In this document: positions 2,251 through 14,842 of the stretch, piece by piece
Position numbering within the stretch: position 1 is the stretch's first letter
Layout of the letters: each line of letters opens with the position of its first letter
Source of the DNA: Planctomycetaceae bacterium
Lineage (GTDB): Bacteria; Planctomycetota; Planctomycetia; Planctomycetales; Planctomycetaceae
Direction of reading: 5' to 3'
Length of the DNA stretch: 64,000 nt
Assembly: GCA_028284885.1 (NCBI GenBank)
Contig: JANQQW010000074.1
Coordinates: 1 to 64,000 of the forward strand
Position numbers and translations under genes: made by a program
Notes under the pieces: generated by a model
Seen by the model: the letters and a program-made list of their open reading frames with translations, nothing else
Databases searched by the model: none
Told to the model about the DNA's origin: nothing

Positions 2251-2254
2251 GGAG

Positions 2255-2611
2255 TGGAGGCGGCGGGAATCGAACCCGCGTCCTGTGATCCCTCGAACGA
2301 AGCCTCTACGTGCGTAGTTCGCTGATCGATCTCACCGTGGTCGGCTCAACGGACGAAGCGTTGCACGGCCAGGTCACGACCTTGTCTCATGGTGAGAGGA
2401 GCGACCAATGGCTCACCACCAGCCCGAATTTGCGACCGGACTTCGGACTCCTCGGGCGGGGATTCCTTGTCCGGCGTTACGCAATTACTTACGCAACGAG
2501 AGCGTAGTTACGCTCGGCAATTGTTGTTTGATCAGCTTTTAACGTGGCCTGCTGATCAACCACGGCACGCCACCCCGCTCTGCGGTGACCCAGTCGAATC
2601 CAATCGCCCCC
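2255..2611 (-). ncRNA. ssrA: tmRNA (transfer-messenger RNA, SsrA)
   Basis: A 357-nt one-piece tmRNA. The 5' end (minus strand from 2611) reads GGGGGCGA followed by GGATTCGACTGGG, the standard tmRNA opening. The 3' end carries the T arm with GGTTCGATTCCCGCC and acceptor GCCTCCA, which pairs with the 5' G-run. The tag frame lies at about 2500-2530 and reads GCC GAG CGT AAC TAC GCT CTC GTT GCG TAA, encoding AERNYALVA. This is close to the usual bacterial tag, whose C-terminus is recognised by ClpXP. The CCA end is not encoded directly after the discriminator base (CTCCA follows instead), so CCA is presumably added after processing. The RNA rescues stalled ribosomes with SmpB. Confidence 0.95.
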
Positions 2612-9728: not shown

Positions 9729-11528
9729 GTGCCGACCGCGTTCGACGTCACGTTCGTCCCGCCGGACGGATCGCCGATGCGCCGTCGGCTTTCGGACGGG
9801 GAGGAGTACGTCGTCGGCCGTGGTGCCGACTGCGACCTGCGAATCGACGGCGACCCGAGCGTCTCCCGAGAACACTGCCGGGTCCGAGTGCACGGCGGCG
9901 GGGTCGACTTCGAGCGGCTGCCCGAGGCGACCAACCCGTTGTTCCACGAGGGGGAGGAGGTGGCGACCTGCCGGATCGAGGAGTCCGGTGTGGTCGTCGT
10001 GGGGGGGACCGTGGTGCACGTGGCGGCCCACGAGAACGGCACGCCCGACGTCGACGTGCCGGTCGAGGAGATCGCCTTCGACCCAGCGTTCCTGCAGCGG
10101 GTGCGGTACACGAATCCAGGCGACCGCGTGCAGGTTCTGTCCCATCTTCCCGACCTCATCCGCGGCGCACGGACCGAGGCGGAGTTTCGTCACCGGCTGA
10201 CGAGTCTGCTGCTCGCCGGCGTCCCTCACGCGGAAGCGGTGGCGGTCGTCGAGGTCGCCGAGGACGGGACGACCGAGACGCTGCACTGGGAACGGCGACG
10301 CGAGACCGACGGCGACGTCCGTGTCAGCCGGAGACTCGTTCGCGAGTCGTTGACCGAACGCCGCCGCAGCTACCTTCGCGTCTGGGAGGCCGGAGAGGGG
10401 CCTCGGGGGGACGACTTCACGTCGGTTCCGGAGTTCGACTGGGCCTTCTGCACGCCGGTGTTCGAGCACGGCCGGCCGTGGGGCCTGTACGTCGCCGGGC
10501 GAATGGAGAGCGTGGTCGCGGCCTCCGCACTCGACCGGACAACAGAACCACGGGGCCGCTCGCAGCAGTCGACGTTGCTGCACGCGGACGTGAAGTTCAC
10601 GGAGCTCGTCGCGGAGACCGTGCGTGCCGTGAAGCAGTTGCGAACGCTGGAACAGCGACAGACCAGTCTGCGACAGTTCTTCGCGCCCGCCGTGCTGCGA
10701 ATGCTGGGCGACGACCCCGGCCTGCTGGAGCCCCGCGAGTGCGACGTGACGGTGATGTTCTGCGACCTGCGCGGTTTCAGCCGCGAGGCGGAGGCGTCCC
10801 GCGAGGACCTGATGGAGCTGCTCTCCCGCGTGGGGGGAGCGCTCGAGGTCATGAACGACGCGATTCAGGCTCACGGCGGGGTGACGGCGGACTTTCTCGG
10901 CGACGCGGCGCTCGGCTTCTGGGGCTGGCCGCTGGACCAGCCGGACGCACCACGGCTGGCATGCCGAGCAGCGCTTGCGATTCGCGAGGCATTCGCCCGG
11001 GCCCGCGACACGCCGGGCCACCCCCTGGAACGATTCCAGACCGGGATCGGCGTGGCGAGCGGTCGGGCCGTGGCCGGCAAGATCGGCACCAGCGAGCACG
11101 TCAAGGTGACCGTGTTCGGCCCGGTCGTGAACCTGTCGTCCCGGCTCGAGGGAATGACGAAGCAACTCCACGTCCCGATCGCCGTGGATGACGCGACGGC
11201 GGTCACGGCTCGCACGTCACTCGGCCCGGAAGAGGGCCGGCTGCGACGGCTGGGACGCGTGCGACCATTCGGGTTCGACGGGGCGGTGGACGTCCACGAG
11301 GTGCTGCCGCCGTACGTGGGTGACGGGGATCTCACAGACGAGCAGCTGACCGACTACGACCGGTCGGTCGAGAGCTTCGTGGAGGGACGGTGGGAAGAGG
11401 CGCTCGAGTTGCTGGCTCGGCTCCCGGCCTCGGACCGTGCACAGGACTTCCTGGTCGCCCGGATCGTGGGGGCGAACCGGATTCCGCCCGCCGACTGGGA
11501 CGGTGTCGTCGCGTTGCCACAGAAGTAG
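9729..11528 (+). CDS. FHA - GAF-like - class III nucleotide cyclase
   Basis: A 599-residue cytoplasmic signalling protein. Residues 1-100 form an FHA domain (VVGRG at 28-32, SVSREHCRV at 44-52), which binds phosphothreonine peptides. Residues about 130-265 look like a GAF-type sensor domain. A short helical linker leads to the cyclase domain (about 335-490). MFCDLRGFS contains metal ligand Asp346, and FLGDAALGFWG carries the second metal Asp392. GPVVNLSSRLEG supplies Asn468 and Arg472. The position before FLGD that is normally the adenine-selecting Lys is Asp388, so substrate choice (ATP, GTP or none) is open. The C-terminal 100 residues are uncharacterised. GTG 9729 is chosen as the first in-frame start that retains the whole FHA domain. 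Confidence 0.85.
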   Translation: MPTAFDVTFVPPDGSPMRRRLSDGEEYVVGRGADCDLRIDGDPSVSREHCRVRVHGGGVDFERLPEATNPLFHEGEEVATCRIEESGVVVVGGTVVHVAAHENGTPDVDVPVEEIAFDPAFLQRVRYTNPGDRVQVLSHLPDLIRGARTEAEFRHRLTSLLLAGVPHAEAVAVVEVAEDGTTETLHWERRRETDGDVRVSRRLVRESLTERRRSYLRVWEAGEGPRGDDFTSVPEFDWAFCTPVFEHGRPWGLYVAGRMESVVAASALDRTTEPRGRSQQSTLLHADVKFTELVAETVRAVKQLRTLEQRQTSLRQFFAPAVLRMLGDDPGLLEPRECDVTVMFCDLRGFSREAEASREDLMELLSRVGGALEVMNDAIQAHGGVTADFLGDAALGFWGWPLDQPDAPRLACRAALAIREAFARARDTPGHPLERFQTGIGVASGRAVAGKIGTSEHVKVTVFGPVVNLSSRLEGMTKQLHVPIAVDDATAVTARTSLGPEEGRLRRLGRVRPFGFDGAVDVHEVLPPYVGDGDLTDEQLTDYDRSVESFVEGRWEEALELLARLPASDRAQDFLVARIVGANRIPPADWDGVVALPQK

Positions 11529-11700: not shown

Positions 11701-11898
11701 ATGTTCACGTCCCAAGAGTTGGCCTCCGACGTCGCTCCGTTCCTCACGGAACGAGGGTCGGTCCGGCTGGGCGTGCTGAACCGACTGTTCGACCAGTCGA
11801 CCGACACGTCGAACGTCCGGCAGGAAGACCGTTCCCGAGATCTCGCCGAGGAGTCCGGCCCCGACCAACCGTGTGGAGATCGGCGGTCAATTCGATGA
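11701..11898 (+). CDS. small protein coupled to response regulator (unknown)
   Basis: A 65-residue reading frame, MFTSQELASDVAPFL onward, that I do not recognise. It starts at ATG 11701 after the purine-rich GAGAGAG and ends with TGA 11896-11898, overlapping the next start as ATGA. Its codons show the same strong G/C third-position preference as neighbouring genes, and no other gene covers this interval on either strand. It is mostly hydrophilic after residue 30, with no signal peptide or membrane segment. The four-base coupling to the response regulator is the best reason to treat it as real. It could be a regulator-associated peptide or just a leader that sets translation of the next gene. 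Confidence 0.4.
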   Translation: MFTSQELASDVAPFLTERGSVRLGVLNRLFDQSTDTSNVRQEDRSRDLAEESGPDQPCGDRRSIR

Positions 11899-12362
11899 AC
11901 GCTCGCCACCGCATCCTCGTGATCGACGACGACCCGCTCTTCCGGGGGTTGATCGTCTCGCTGCTTCGAAGCGACTACGTCGTGATGGTCGCGAAGGAGG
12001 GCGAGGAGGGATTCTACAAGGCGATCGAGGTGGTCCCCGACGTCGTGGTCATCGACGTGAACATGCCCGGTTGGGACGGGATCCGCACCGTGAAGGCACT
12101 CCGAGGGCACCGCTCGACGGCGCACTGTCGGATCATGATGCTGACGGGCGACGCGAAACGCGACACGGTCGTCTCGGCGATTCAGGCCGGGGCGGACGAC
12201 TACCTCATCAAGACCAGCTTCACGAACCGGGAACTCCAAGAGAAGCTCGGCGTGCTGATCGACCGGGACGAGCCGACGCGCGTGGACGCGGTCGATGCCG
12301 AGGAACCCGTCACCACCGACGTGAACCAGAAGCTGCAGGAGGTCATCGACGGCTGGGAGTGA
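11895..12362 (+). CDS. single-domain response regulator
   Basis: A 155-residue protein consisting of a receiver domain: RILVIDDDP (acidic pocket), VVVIDVNMPGWDG with the phospho-acceptor Asp, MMLTGD (conserved Thr) and DDYLIKTSF (conserved Lys). A short C-terminal tail (DVNQKLQEVIDGWE) may form a helix. There is no DNA-binding or enzymatic output domain, as in CheY/Spo0F-type regulators, so it probably passes phosphate or binds a partner protein. Start ATG 11895 overlaps the stop of the preceding small ORF; a longer frame from GTG 11871 has no better ribosome site. It is convergent with the hybrid kinase gene, 18 bases away, which is a natural candidate partner. Confidence 0.85.
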   Translation: MNARHRILVIDDDPLFRGLIVSLLRSDYVVMVAKEGEEGFYKAIEVVPDVVVIDVNMPGWDGIRTVKALRGHRSTAHCRIMMLTGDAKRDTVVSAIQAGADDYLIKTSFTNRELQEKLGVLIDRDEPTRVDAVDAEEPVTTDVNQKLQEVIDGWE

Positions 12363-12380: not shown

Positions 12381-13931
12381 TCAACTCGTGACGACCTCGC
12401 CGGAGAGCACCCGCTCCAACAGCCCGAAGTCGACCGGCTTGACGAGATGTTCGTCGAACCCCGCGTCGCGAGTCTTCTCGAAGTCGCCGGGCATCCCGTG
12501 GCCGGTGAGCGCGACGAGCTCGAGGTCGTCCCAGTCGCGGTTCTCACGGACCTTACGGGCCAGTTCGAGCCCGCTCATCCCGGCCATGCCGAGATCGACG
12601 AGCGCAACGTCGAACTCCGCGGTCTCGAGGAGTTTGAGCGCCCGAAACCCGTTCTCCGCCGGAGTGACGTGGTGCCCGGACATCGAGACGGTCATCGCCG
12701 TCAGTTCCCGGAGGTCGTCGTTGTCCTCGACGAGCAGGACTCTTCGAGCTGCGGGCGACGCGGGGACGTCCGGACCGGTGCTCGCGGGTTCCGACGGCGC
12801 GGCGATCGCAGGAAGCCGTGCCTCGAACCGGGAACCACATCCGGGGCCGTCGCTGGTGGCGCGGATTCCCCCGCCGTGTCGTTCCAAGATCGTCTTCGCC
12901 AGCGAGAGCCCCATGCCGAGCCCGGCCTGACCGTGGTCGACGGAGGAGCTCAGCTGCACGAACGGGTCGAAGATCGACTCGAGCGAGGAGGCCGGGATGC
13001 CGCAGCCCTCGTCGTCGACGACGAGAACCGCCTCGTCCTGCTCCAGTATGAGGGCGAGCGAGATCGACTTGTCCGACGGTGTGTACTTGAGGGCGTTGCC
13101 GAGCAGGTTGACGACCACCTGGACGAGTCGCGAGGCGTCCCCCGTGACGTACAGTCGCTGCTCCGGCACCTCGACCCGGAGTTGCGCAGCCAGCTGGGCG
13201 TGCGCCGCGTGGCTGGTCTGGACGGCGTCCTCGACGACGTCTTGCAGGCAGATTTCCTCGTGCCGCAGTTCGATCCGGCCGTAGGCGAACCGGGAGACGT
13301 CGAGCAGGTCGTCGAGCAACCGGTTCACGAGGCTGCACTGCCGACCGGCCGCGCTCAAGGCCTCACTCACCGGTGTGTCGTCTTCGACGTGCTGCGACGC
13401 GAAACCGATCCCGTTGGTGATGGCGGCGAGGGGGTTTCGGAGTTCGTGCGACAGCATCGCCATGAACTCGTCACGGCGGCGAACCTCCTCGCGATGCCAT
13501 TCCTCGGCACGCCGTCGCTCGCTCACGTCTCGAATCGTCGCGAGCAGCGCGGGCCGTCGCTGCCAGCGTGTGGCGGCCACCCGGAACTCCACGATCCGCG
13601 ACTCGTCCTCCCCGTCCCGTTGTATCTCGACGTCGACGGACTCCCCCGGCGCGCATCGTACGCCGAACGTGTTCCCGAGCAGTTCCTCCAGAGTGGACCC
13701 GAGGAGGGACTGGGCAGCCGGATTGGCGTAGTAGATCGTGCCCCGGTCGTCGAGAACGAGGACGCCGTCCACGTTGCGGGTGACTACCGCGTGGAAGTAC
13801 GACCGACTCGCGTCGAGCATCCGCTCGACTCCGGAGACGTCGCGACTCGGCTCGTCGGACGACTGGCTCGTACGGCCGCAAACGTAGGTCTGCAACTGCT
13901 TGGACTCGACGGGCACGGCCCACTCCGCCAT
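12381..13931 (-). CDS. hybrid histidine kinase (PAS - HisKA - HATPase - receiver)
   Basis: A 516-residue soluble kinase. A PAS domain spans about 40-137 (VLVLDDRGTIYYANPAAQSLLG). HisKA carries phospho-acceptor His162 in MLSHELRNPLAA. The HATPase domain shows the N box NLLGNALKYTP, the G1 box VVDDEGCGIP, an FDPF F box, and the G2 box GLGMGLSLAK. A C-terminal receiver (about 397-515) has VEDNDD, phospho-acceptor Asp446 in ALVDLGMAG, and Lys498. No membrane segment is seen, so the signal is cytosolic. ATG 13931 is preferred; GTG 13982 is an alternative. The gene lies 95 bases after the CsrA-receiver gene on the same strand, so the two may share a transcript and a phosphorelay. Confidence 0.9.
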   Translation of the reverse strand: MAEWAVPVESKQLQTYVCGRTSQSSDEPSRDVSGVERMLDASRSYFHAVVTRNVDGVLVLDDRGTIYYANPAAQSLLGSTLEELLGNTFGVRCAPGESVDVEIQRDGEDESRIVEFRVAATRWQRRPALLATIRDVSERRRAEEWHREEVRRRDEFMAMLSHELRNPLAAITNGIGFASQHVEDDTPVSEALSAAGRQCSLVNRLLDDLLDVSRFAYGRIELRHEEICLQDVVEDAVQTSHAAHAQLAAQLRVEVPEQRLYVTGDASRLVQVVVNLLGNALKYTPSDKSISLALILEQDEAVLVVDDEGCGIPASSLESIFDPFVQLSSSVDHGQAGLGMGLSLAKTILERHGGGIRATSDGPGCGSRFEARLPAIAAPSEPASTGPDVPASPAARRVLLVEDNDDLRELTAMTVSMSGHHVTPAENGFRALKLLETAEFDVALVDLGMAGMSGLELARKVRENRDWDDLELVALTGHGMPGDFEKTRDAGFDEHLVKPVDFGLLERVLSGEVVTS

Positions 13932-14026
13932 CGTTGTCGTTCGAAAAGAGCGATGTCGCGCTGCGGAGGCTCCGGCGGTCACGCCGAGTGCAGGCGACCG
14001 AGCGCGTCGCAGAACGTCCCTCGCGG

Positions 14027-14803
14027 TCAGGCGACGCTCGCCGCCGGGGCGAGTTCGTTGCGGAGCGTCCGCACGAGCTGGGCCGGGTCGAGCGGCTTCG
14101 GGAACCAGCGATCGACGCCCAGCGGACCGTCGGGGACACCCAGCTCGGTCGGGTCCGTGCCGCTGATCGCGAAGACCTTGAGGCGTTCGAGCTGCGGCAT
14201 GTGACGGATGCGGGCAACCGTCTCCGCTCCGTCGAGCCGCGGCATGATCATGTCGAGCAGGACGACGTCGGGCGTCGCCCCGGTCTGGAGCGCCTGCAAC
14301 GCCTCGTCTCCGTCGCCGGCGACCGTCACGTCGAACCCGCTCAGCTTGAGGTAGCCAGCCAGCAACTCGCTCTGGTTCGGGTCGTCCTCGACGAGCAACG
14401 CCTGACGGCTCGATTCGTCGCCGTTCTGGGACGCCGCAATCTTCGCACGGGACGCGCCCCTCGGATCGACGAGGTCTTCGAGCGCTGCGAACCCCTTGAC
14501 GATCCGCTCGAGGAGCTTGTTGGCCTCCACCTGGTTGCCCGCGGCAAGTTGGCGATCGACGAGGTGAAGAGCCAGCTTGAGCGTGTGCAGCTGGTTGAGG
14601 ACGTCGTGACGCTGCTGCTTCCGACCCGCGAGGGCGGACTCCTGCGTCGGGTCGTCGAGCACTTCTTTGCGGAGGACCGTCACGTCGTCCGGGGCGTTAA
14701 TGCCGACCTTCACCACGTTGCCGCGGATCCGGAGAACGGAGACGGTGACGCCGATCTCGGGGAAGACGATGGACTCGTCGTTCCGGCGCGTGAGCACGAG
14801 CAT
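14027..14803 (-). CDS. CsrA - helical phosphotransfer-like - receiver fusion protein
   Basis: A 258-residue three-part protein. Residues 1-51 match CsrA: MLVLTRR start, GVTVSVLRIRGNVVKVGINAP core, and VTVLRKEV with Arg45 equivalent to the RNA-contacting Arg44 of E. coli CsrA; one residue is inserted near position 16. Residues about 60-112 are helical, with RHDVLNQLHTLKLAL (His66), resembling the H-D-x-x-N motif of Spo0B/LytS-type dimerisation helices. Residues 134-252 are a receiver domain with Glu139-Asp140-Asp141, phospho-acceptor Asp184 in LLDMIMP, Ser214 and Lys236. ATG 14803 has AAGGAGT seven bases upstream. CsrA binds GGA motifs in mRNA leaders, so this looks like an RNA regulator switched by phosphorylation. 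That last step is inference. Confidence 0.88.
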   Translation of the reverse strand: MLVLTRRNDESIVFPEIGVTVSVLRIRGNVVKVGINAPDDVTVLRKEVLDDPTQESALAGRKQQRHDVLNQLHTLKLALHLVDRQLAAGNQVEANKLLERIVKGFAALEDLVDPRGASRAKIAASQNGDESSRQALLVEDDPNQSELLAGYLKLSGFDVTVAGDGDEALQALQTGATPDVVLLDMIMPRLDGAETVARIRHMPQLERLKVFAISGTDPTELGVPDGPLGVDRWFPKPLDPAQLVRTLRNELAPAASVA

Positions 14804-14809
14804 TGTAAG

Positions 14810-14842
14810 GACTCCTTTCCGAGGCGATCGACAACGATCGCC
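14810..14842 (-). promoter_or_regulatory. leader hairpin and GGA-rich ribosome site of the CsrA-receiver gene
   Basis: On the minus strand a perfect 8-bp stem GGCGATCG / CGATCGCC with loop TTGT (14842-14823) is followed directly by TCGGAAAGGAGT, so two GGA triplets overlap the Shine-Dalgarno. CsrA proteins repress by binding GGA motifs at ribosome sites, so autoregulation is plausible. Confidence 0.5.

Follow-up and report, generated by a model that had tools for sequence, protein, structure and literature searches.

The window analysed here (a whole stretch of 64,000 nucleotides of planctomycete DNA) encodes on its minus strand a protein in which a CsrA RNA-binding domain, a helical hairpin carrying a HisKA-type H-box and a receiver domain are joined in one chain. 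Relatives of this protein recur throughout one class of planctomycetes, most often beside sensor kinase genes, and a CsrA-type hairpin recurs over their ribosome-binding sites. On balance, we lean towards reading the protein as a response regulator with an mRNA-binding output, which would be fed by a His-Asp-His-Asp relay and would regulate its own synthesis via the leader hairpin.

Domain architecture of the fusion protein

The gene and its parts are as follows.

14030..14803, minus strand: CsrA / H-box hairpin / receiver fusion gene, 258 codons, ATG at 14803, stop at 14027-14029 (translation, Pfam, 110 relatives)
14654..14803, minus strand: CsrA domain, residues 1-50, with the codon of the RNA-contact residue R45 at 14669-14671 (PF02599; R6, G34, A37 and R45 identical in 110/110 relatives)
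14468..14650, minus strand: helical hairpin, residues 52-112, with the H66 codon at 14606-14608 and the N70 codon at 14594-14596 (AlphaFold2 helices; hhalign to HisKA)
14048..14407, minus strand: receiver domain, residues 133-252, with the D184 codon at 14252-14254 and the K236 codon at 14096-14098 (PF00072, conservation, Foldseek)

The original prediction had placed a 258-residue protein of this make-up at 14027-14803, and both these coordinates and the positions given for R45, D184 and K236 agree with translation and Pfam; the strand, which had been left unstated, is minus, and a plus-strand reading of the same interval yields an unrelated frame. Pfam assigns residues 1-50 to the CsrA family (PF02599, 60.6 bits vs. 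a cut-off of 27, E 1.4e-16), and the fusion scores below the NCBIfam cut-offs for stand-alone CsrA (56.8 vs. 73). R45 corresponds to R44 of E. coli CsrA, and R6 and L4 are RNA-contact residues as well. Residues 136-247 match Response_reg (PF00072, 66.8 bits vs. a cut-off of 30.2, E 2.4e-18) and display the fold, acidic pair, phospho-Asp, Ser/Thr and Lys of a receiver; the top Foldseek matches of this part are receivers (e.g., RR468), and W233 occupies the switch-aromatic position. The AlphaFold2 model, a monomer built from five sequences (pTM 0.49), contains the CsrA strands (the first with low confidence), helices at residues 52-87 and 91-112, and a receiver fold at 133-252. Pfam found no HATPase (CA) domain in the fusion, which does not qualify as a histidine kinase, and no match to Hpt (PF01627) or ANTAR. 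By its receiver, the protein is a response regulator; by its RNA-binding part, it is a member of the CsrA family.

Distribution and conservation of the family

Planctomycetes carry many CsrA genes. The genome that contains the window (6.47 Mb in 399 contigs) has ten genes of the CsrA family, and among eight of them (all except L003 and L010) the window gene is the sole fusion. The search for the same fusion in other planctomycetes, advocated in the original prediction, yielded 110 proteins in which CsrA is joined to a receiver, drawn from about 95 genomes within the class of the window genome, and these constitute the family set used below. The three-part protein occurs in Rhodopirellula rubra and other planctomycete genomes at about 35-45% identity, and a CsrA-plus-helix profile run over 398 genomes of the class gave approximately 100 matches spanning both parts, which fall into several families. 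Its recurrence across many genomes excludes chance or an assembly error as the origin of this three-part protein. In a phylum-wide draw, the fusion was confined to the window's class among the matches listed; searches in two further phyla, centred on a Thiobaca genome (249 genomes) and a Desulfuromonas genome (198 genomes), returned free CsrA alone, and a search of plasmids gave receiver matches alone, with no fusion in either case.

Besides the four invariant CsrA residues, L4 is present in 93/110 proteins (V replacing it in 14), and the receiver keeps D184 in 108/110, K236 in 106/110, and E/D139, D140 and S/T214 each in 108/110. The CsrA part differs from free CsrA by F14 (101/110) and P15 (109/110). 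Three fusion copies (L134 in genome G167, L177 and L194) carry degenerate receivers, with the Lys lost or the Asp replaced by Asn, and are pseudo-receivers. Adjoining one CsrA fusion is a gene (L044, 480-1529) whose 350-residue product shares the H-box helix, has a receiver and lacks CsrA; the phosphotransfer-receiver module thus seems to be shuffled between proteins.

The middle helix as a HisKA-type H-box

The helical RHDVLN segment exists as originally described, and its comparison to Spo0B/LytS-type dimerisation helices was not upheld as a specific family assignment: SPOB_a (PF14689), the only family matched by the segment in the whole window protein, scores 10.9 bits with the entire protein and 15.1 with the segment alone, vs. 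a cut-off of 28.1. The helix is better read, from profile and residue comparisons, as a HisKA-type H-box lacking the kinase ATP domain. It reads H66-D-V-L-N70-Q-L72 in the window protein and H-x-x-R-N-x-L as the family signature. The window's own sequence alone falls short of Pfam HisKA, which is matched by 11/35 family members (best E 1.9e-4 in one search and 4.5e-6 in another). Aligned by hhalign to the HisKA domains of neighbouring kinases, the fusion helix scores 46.4 vs. a maximum of 19.4 in 300 column shuffles; by this profile comparison, the H-box helix is homologous to HisKA/DHp (PF00512), the signal being confined entirely to it, as the second helix of the hairpin taken alone has no HisKA similarity by hhalign. 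When the CsrA-plus-helix profile was applied to another phylum, all ten helix-only matches examined were kinase H-boxes (HE[VI]RNPL-type in nine, HEIGNQV in one). Matches to TPR/PPR proteins among PDB sequences were set aside; they cover merely a G-x4-A turn of the second helix and sum over the repeats of designed proteins.

In HisKA proteins, the His and the Asn/Thr at +4 serve phosphotransfer and phosphatase action, an acid at +1 is expected for an autokinase, and the kinase H-box carries a proline. Among the 94 family rows that retain H66, Asn stands at +4 in 91 and Leu at +6 in 93, an acid is found at +1 in just 42, and the +5 proline is absent. Together with the missing ATP domain, this is the pattern of a phosphotransfer station rather than a kinase; phosphotransferases derived from kinases are known in ChpT and Spo0B (PMC3433190). 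The conserved His and Asn suggest that the helix may be a phosphotransfer (or phosphatase) station, beyond a dimerisation element.

Neighbouring sensor kinases

Two signalling genes lie next to the fusion gene in the window.

12384..13982, minus strand: hybrid sensor kinase PAS-HisKA-HATPase-receiver, 44 bp downstream of the fusion gene, probable partner (Pfam; a kinase stands beside the fusion in most relatives)
11871..12359, plus strand, opposite to the fusion: stand-alone receiver gene, with at most a hypothetical link to the fusion (PF00072, 85.4 bits)

Also near the fusion locus, at 9729-11525 (plus strand), an FHA domain is joined to an adenylate/guanylate cyclase catalytic domain, and a tmRNA gene (tag AERNYALVA) occupies 2254-2611 (minus strand). 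Among fusion genes with at least 4.5 kb of sequence on both sides, 47/56 lie no more than 4.5 kb from a sensor kinase gene (36 of the 56 within 400 bp), compared with 0/19 free csrA genes of related genomes; no kinase lies near the fusion copy of Rhodopirellula rubra. The usual partner has the architecture CheB-CheR-PAS-HisKA-HATPase-receiver (1,220-1,580 residues) or, as in the window, PAS-HisKA-HATPase-receiver (about 530 residues). At five loci (L135-L139), a pair of CsrA-receiver fusion genes, separated by about 10 kb, flanks two or three giant CheB-CheR-PAS(-kinase) genes.

Since the receiver and the RNA-contact residues are conserved in 110 relatives and sensor kinases adjoin the gene, control of the fusion protein by a kinase is likely on these comparative grounds; the neighbourhood does not prove that the adjoining kinases are the partners. 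Hence, the earlier proposal that a kinase acts through the covalent receiver is strengthened as regards the receiver and its kinases, and its remaining part, an effect on RNA binding, we continue to infer.

The receivers of the two proteins also differ in type. At the position of CheY Y106, fusion receivers have Trp in 109/110 cases (W233), whereas 59/79 partner-kinase receivers have His there and 6 have Tyr. One study reports that intermediary receivers do not show the allosteric response seen in terminal ones (PMC9981736), and the Trp vs. His contrast fits the output-type vs. intermediary-type receivers of that study, with the fusion receiver as the putative last station.

H66 and the type of partner kinase

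Where a fusion has a kinase at most 1.5 kb away, the closest such kinase ends in a receiver for 65/71 copies with H66 and for 1/8 copies without it (Fisher p 4e-6, kinship uncorrected). Three of the six H66-containing copies whose nearest kinase lacks a C-terminal receiver have that kinase at 820-860 bp, and one has a receiver in an overlapping frame. The same division is seen within the two-fusion loci, where the copy with H66 adjoins the receiver-bearing kinase and the copy without it adjoins a kinase lacking a receiver. The lone exception among copies without H66 (L180, with F in its place) stands beside a CHASE-HisKA-HATPase-receiver-receiver-Hpt kinase (Hpt by Pfam) and groups in the tree with the H66-containing copies of L135, L138 and L139 (support 99). 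Five examined partner kinases of copies without H66 other than L180 have no receiver at all, and a further lineage without H66 (L178) is found next to a plain HAMP kinase. The tree implies about six changes at H66, at least three of them on well-supported branches; for the comparison with partner type it offers only two independent pairs, both in the predicted direction. Finally, 11 CsrA proteins with a related helical linker and no good receiver, a non-random sample gathered for resemblance to the profile (L176, L179, L181-L183, L185-L187, L189, L191 and L192), have lost H66 in 10/11 cases (L192 alone keeps it), and 0/11 have a kinase within 4 kb.

Overall, H66 is usually present with a receiver-ended partner and mostly lost otherwise. 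This pattern, supported by only two to three independent losses, is suggestive, not proof, of a His-Asp-His-Asp phosphorelay whose last member is an RNA-binding protein. The main rival, direct two-component control, would have the kinase phosphorylate D184 itself, leaving H66 and N70 to control how long the phosphoryl group persists, either as an internal phosphatase or as a docking surface. His and the +4 Asn are the residues that kinases use for phosphatase activity, the Asn is conserved to the same extent as the His (91/94), and the copies without H66 beside receiver-less kinases retain D184 and K236, so that direct transfer must work there. This scheme, however, gives no account of why H66 tracks the receiver (or the own Hpt) of the partner, and we consider it roughly a one-in-several prospect. 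It is improbable, in turn, that the hairpin is a dead kinase relic kept for dimerisation only, with the receiver as an assembly or localisation module and CsrA binding RNA constitutively. Such a role would suit two domains, CsrA and HisKA, that are both dimeric, and some copies do retain the length of the hairpin without the His; however, H66, N70, D184, K236, S/T214 and W233 are all strongly conserved, and the loss of H66 in nearly all copies lacking a good receiver argues that it is not retained for folding alone.

A conserved CsrA-type hairpin in the leaders

The leader RNA of the window fusion gene is GGAAAGGAGUCC, in which one element covers the ribosome-binding site.

14809..14820, minus strand: CsrA-type hairpin over the Shine-Dalgarno sequence, GGA[AAGGAG]TCC, ending 5 nt before the ATG (sole GGWANGGARWCC match in 64 kb; enriched and covarying in fusion leaders)

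CsrA and RsmE bind short-stemmed hairpins whose six-nucleotide loop reads ANGGAN (PMC7652899). Within 80 nt, the 110 fusion leaders contain 143 A-N-GGA motifs vs. 34 in shuffles. After thinning of the leader set to 80, of which 74 have a GGA near the start, a hairpin (GGA within a loop of 5-8 nt, with three Watson-Crick pairs closing it) was present in 38/74 fusion leaders (51%) vs. 44/405 (11%) of the remaining genes at these loci (odds ratio 8.7, p 4e-14); the corresponding counts are 10/76 for kinase genes and 9/33 for free csrA genes. The ANGGAN six-nucleotide register pairs best (57% of pairs vs. 9-46% when slid), the closing stems vary in step (GGA/TCC, GGT/ACC, GGC/GCC, GAA/TTC, GAT/ATC, AGA/TCT), and the count of 38 was never attained in 500 trials with 3' flanks reshuffled among leaders (mean 23.6, largest 33). 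The case for the hairpin is entirely comparative, because its energy alone (-2 kcal/mol) is no better than that of shuffles. A search of Rfam gave no match in the 11-18 kb part of the window.

The conserved hairpin therefore supports both a CsrA part that still binds RNA and the status of these genes as CsrA targets. Judged by their leaders, the fusion genes are probably targets of their own product, giving a predicted autoregulation, where the binder could be any of the ten CsrA-family proteins. That the CsrA part is mainly an autoregulatory or protein-protein module, whose output is the titration of those ten proteins (e.g., in heterodimers) rather than direct regulation of mRNAs, strikes us as the least probable of the readings weighed here: ten genes in one genome make mixed dimers conceivable, and some free csrA leaders (9/33) share the hairpin, while the RNA-contact residues are invariant and the F14-P15 pair sets this CsrA part apart from free CsrA, making mixing less likely.

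The whole-genome hairpin search returned 29 sites vs. 7 in a reversed control, three of them at start sites with the GGAAAGGA form, which are too few for a regulon. Two sites of the form GGAAAGGA(G/A)(T/A)CC lie just before GTG starts elsewhere in the genome (L266 and L253, on contigs C235 and C136); their genes, for an apparent exported 363-residue protein and a sugar-nucleotidyltransferase-like protein, respectively, are candidate targets.

Proposed mechanism and comparison with known systems

In the favoured relay, the neighbouring hybrid kinase would autophosphorylate its HisKA histidine (H1) and transfer the phosphoryl group to the receiver at its C terminus (D1). The next acceptor would be H66 (H2) in the HisKA-like hairpin of the fusion, a hairpin that would act like a ChpT/Spo0B-type phosphotransferase and dimerise together with the CsrA dimer; the last would be D184 of the fusion receiver (D2). 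Phosphorylation of D184 would rearrange the dimer and thereby alter, with whichever sign, the binding of GGA hairpins by the two CsrA RNA sites, the presumed first target being the hairpin that covers the ribosome-binding site of the fusion gene itself. We give an even chance to the broader view that a HisKA-derived phosphotransferase and a receiver, fused to CsrA, let kinases (often CheB-CheR-PAS hybrids) rewire mRNA binding directly, with autoregulation via the start-site CsrA hairpin.

CsrA is a global post-transcriptional regulator, normally a free protein of about 60-70 residues, and is known to be controlled by decoy sRNAs and by proteins like FliW. FliW is absent from the window's own genome. 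If the proposed mechanism holds, mRNA binding could switch in direct response to an external signal, bypassing small RNAs and FliW, with signal-to-mRNA control contained in one protein. It would constitute a second kind of RNA-binding output for two-component systems besides ANTAR and a starting point for studying how signals control translation in planctomycetes, and the natural partner swaps, in which H66 is kept or lost, render the phosphorelay idea directly testable. No description of a CsrA-receiver fusion was found among the open-access papers covered; the combination and its probable mode of control appear new, and domain databases may list the architecture automatically. A review (PMC12471899) in which E. 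coli CsrA is classed among orphan response regulators conflicts with the lack of a receiver in that protein and offers no precedent.

The fusion shares with CsrA/RsmA/RsmE a CsrA domain with an invariant RNA-contact Arg and ANGGAN hairpins as sites (PMC7652899), and differs from these free proteins by its covalent receiver and H-box hairpin. As in BarA-UvrY and GacS-GacA, a hybrid kinase is proposed ultimately to govern CsrA activity; however, the regulator of those systems is a DNA-binding protein that makes the CsrB/RsmZ sRNAs, whereas the fusion in principle needs neither the DNA-binding step nor an sRNA. The ANTAR regulators (AmiR/NasR/EutV/PdtaR) likewise have an RNA-binding output, with receivers in some (PMC3369931), but their RNA-binding domain is unrelated and all-helical, acts on terminator/antiterminator hairpins and comes without a phosphotransfer helix. 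ChpT and Spo0B provide the model for a DHp hairpin of kinase origin that relays a phosphoryl group but has no autokinase activity (PMC3433190), as proposed for the fusion; they are separate proteins with a degenerate ATP domain, whereas here the hairpin, receiver and output share one chain with no remnant of the ATP domain. A parallel in proposed order is CckA-ChpT-CtrA, a His-Asp-His-Asp route from a hybrid kinase to a DHp-type phosphotransferase, whose terminal output, unlike that of the fusion, is DNA binding.
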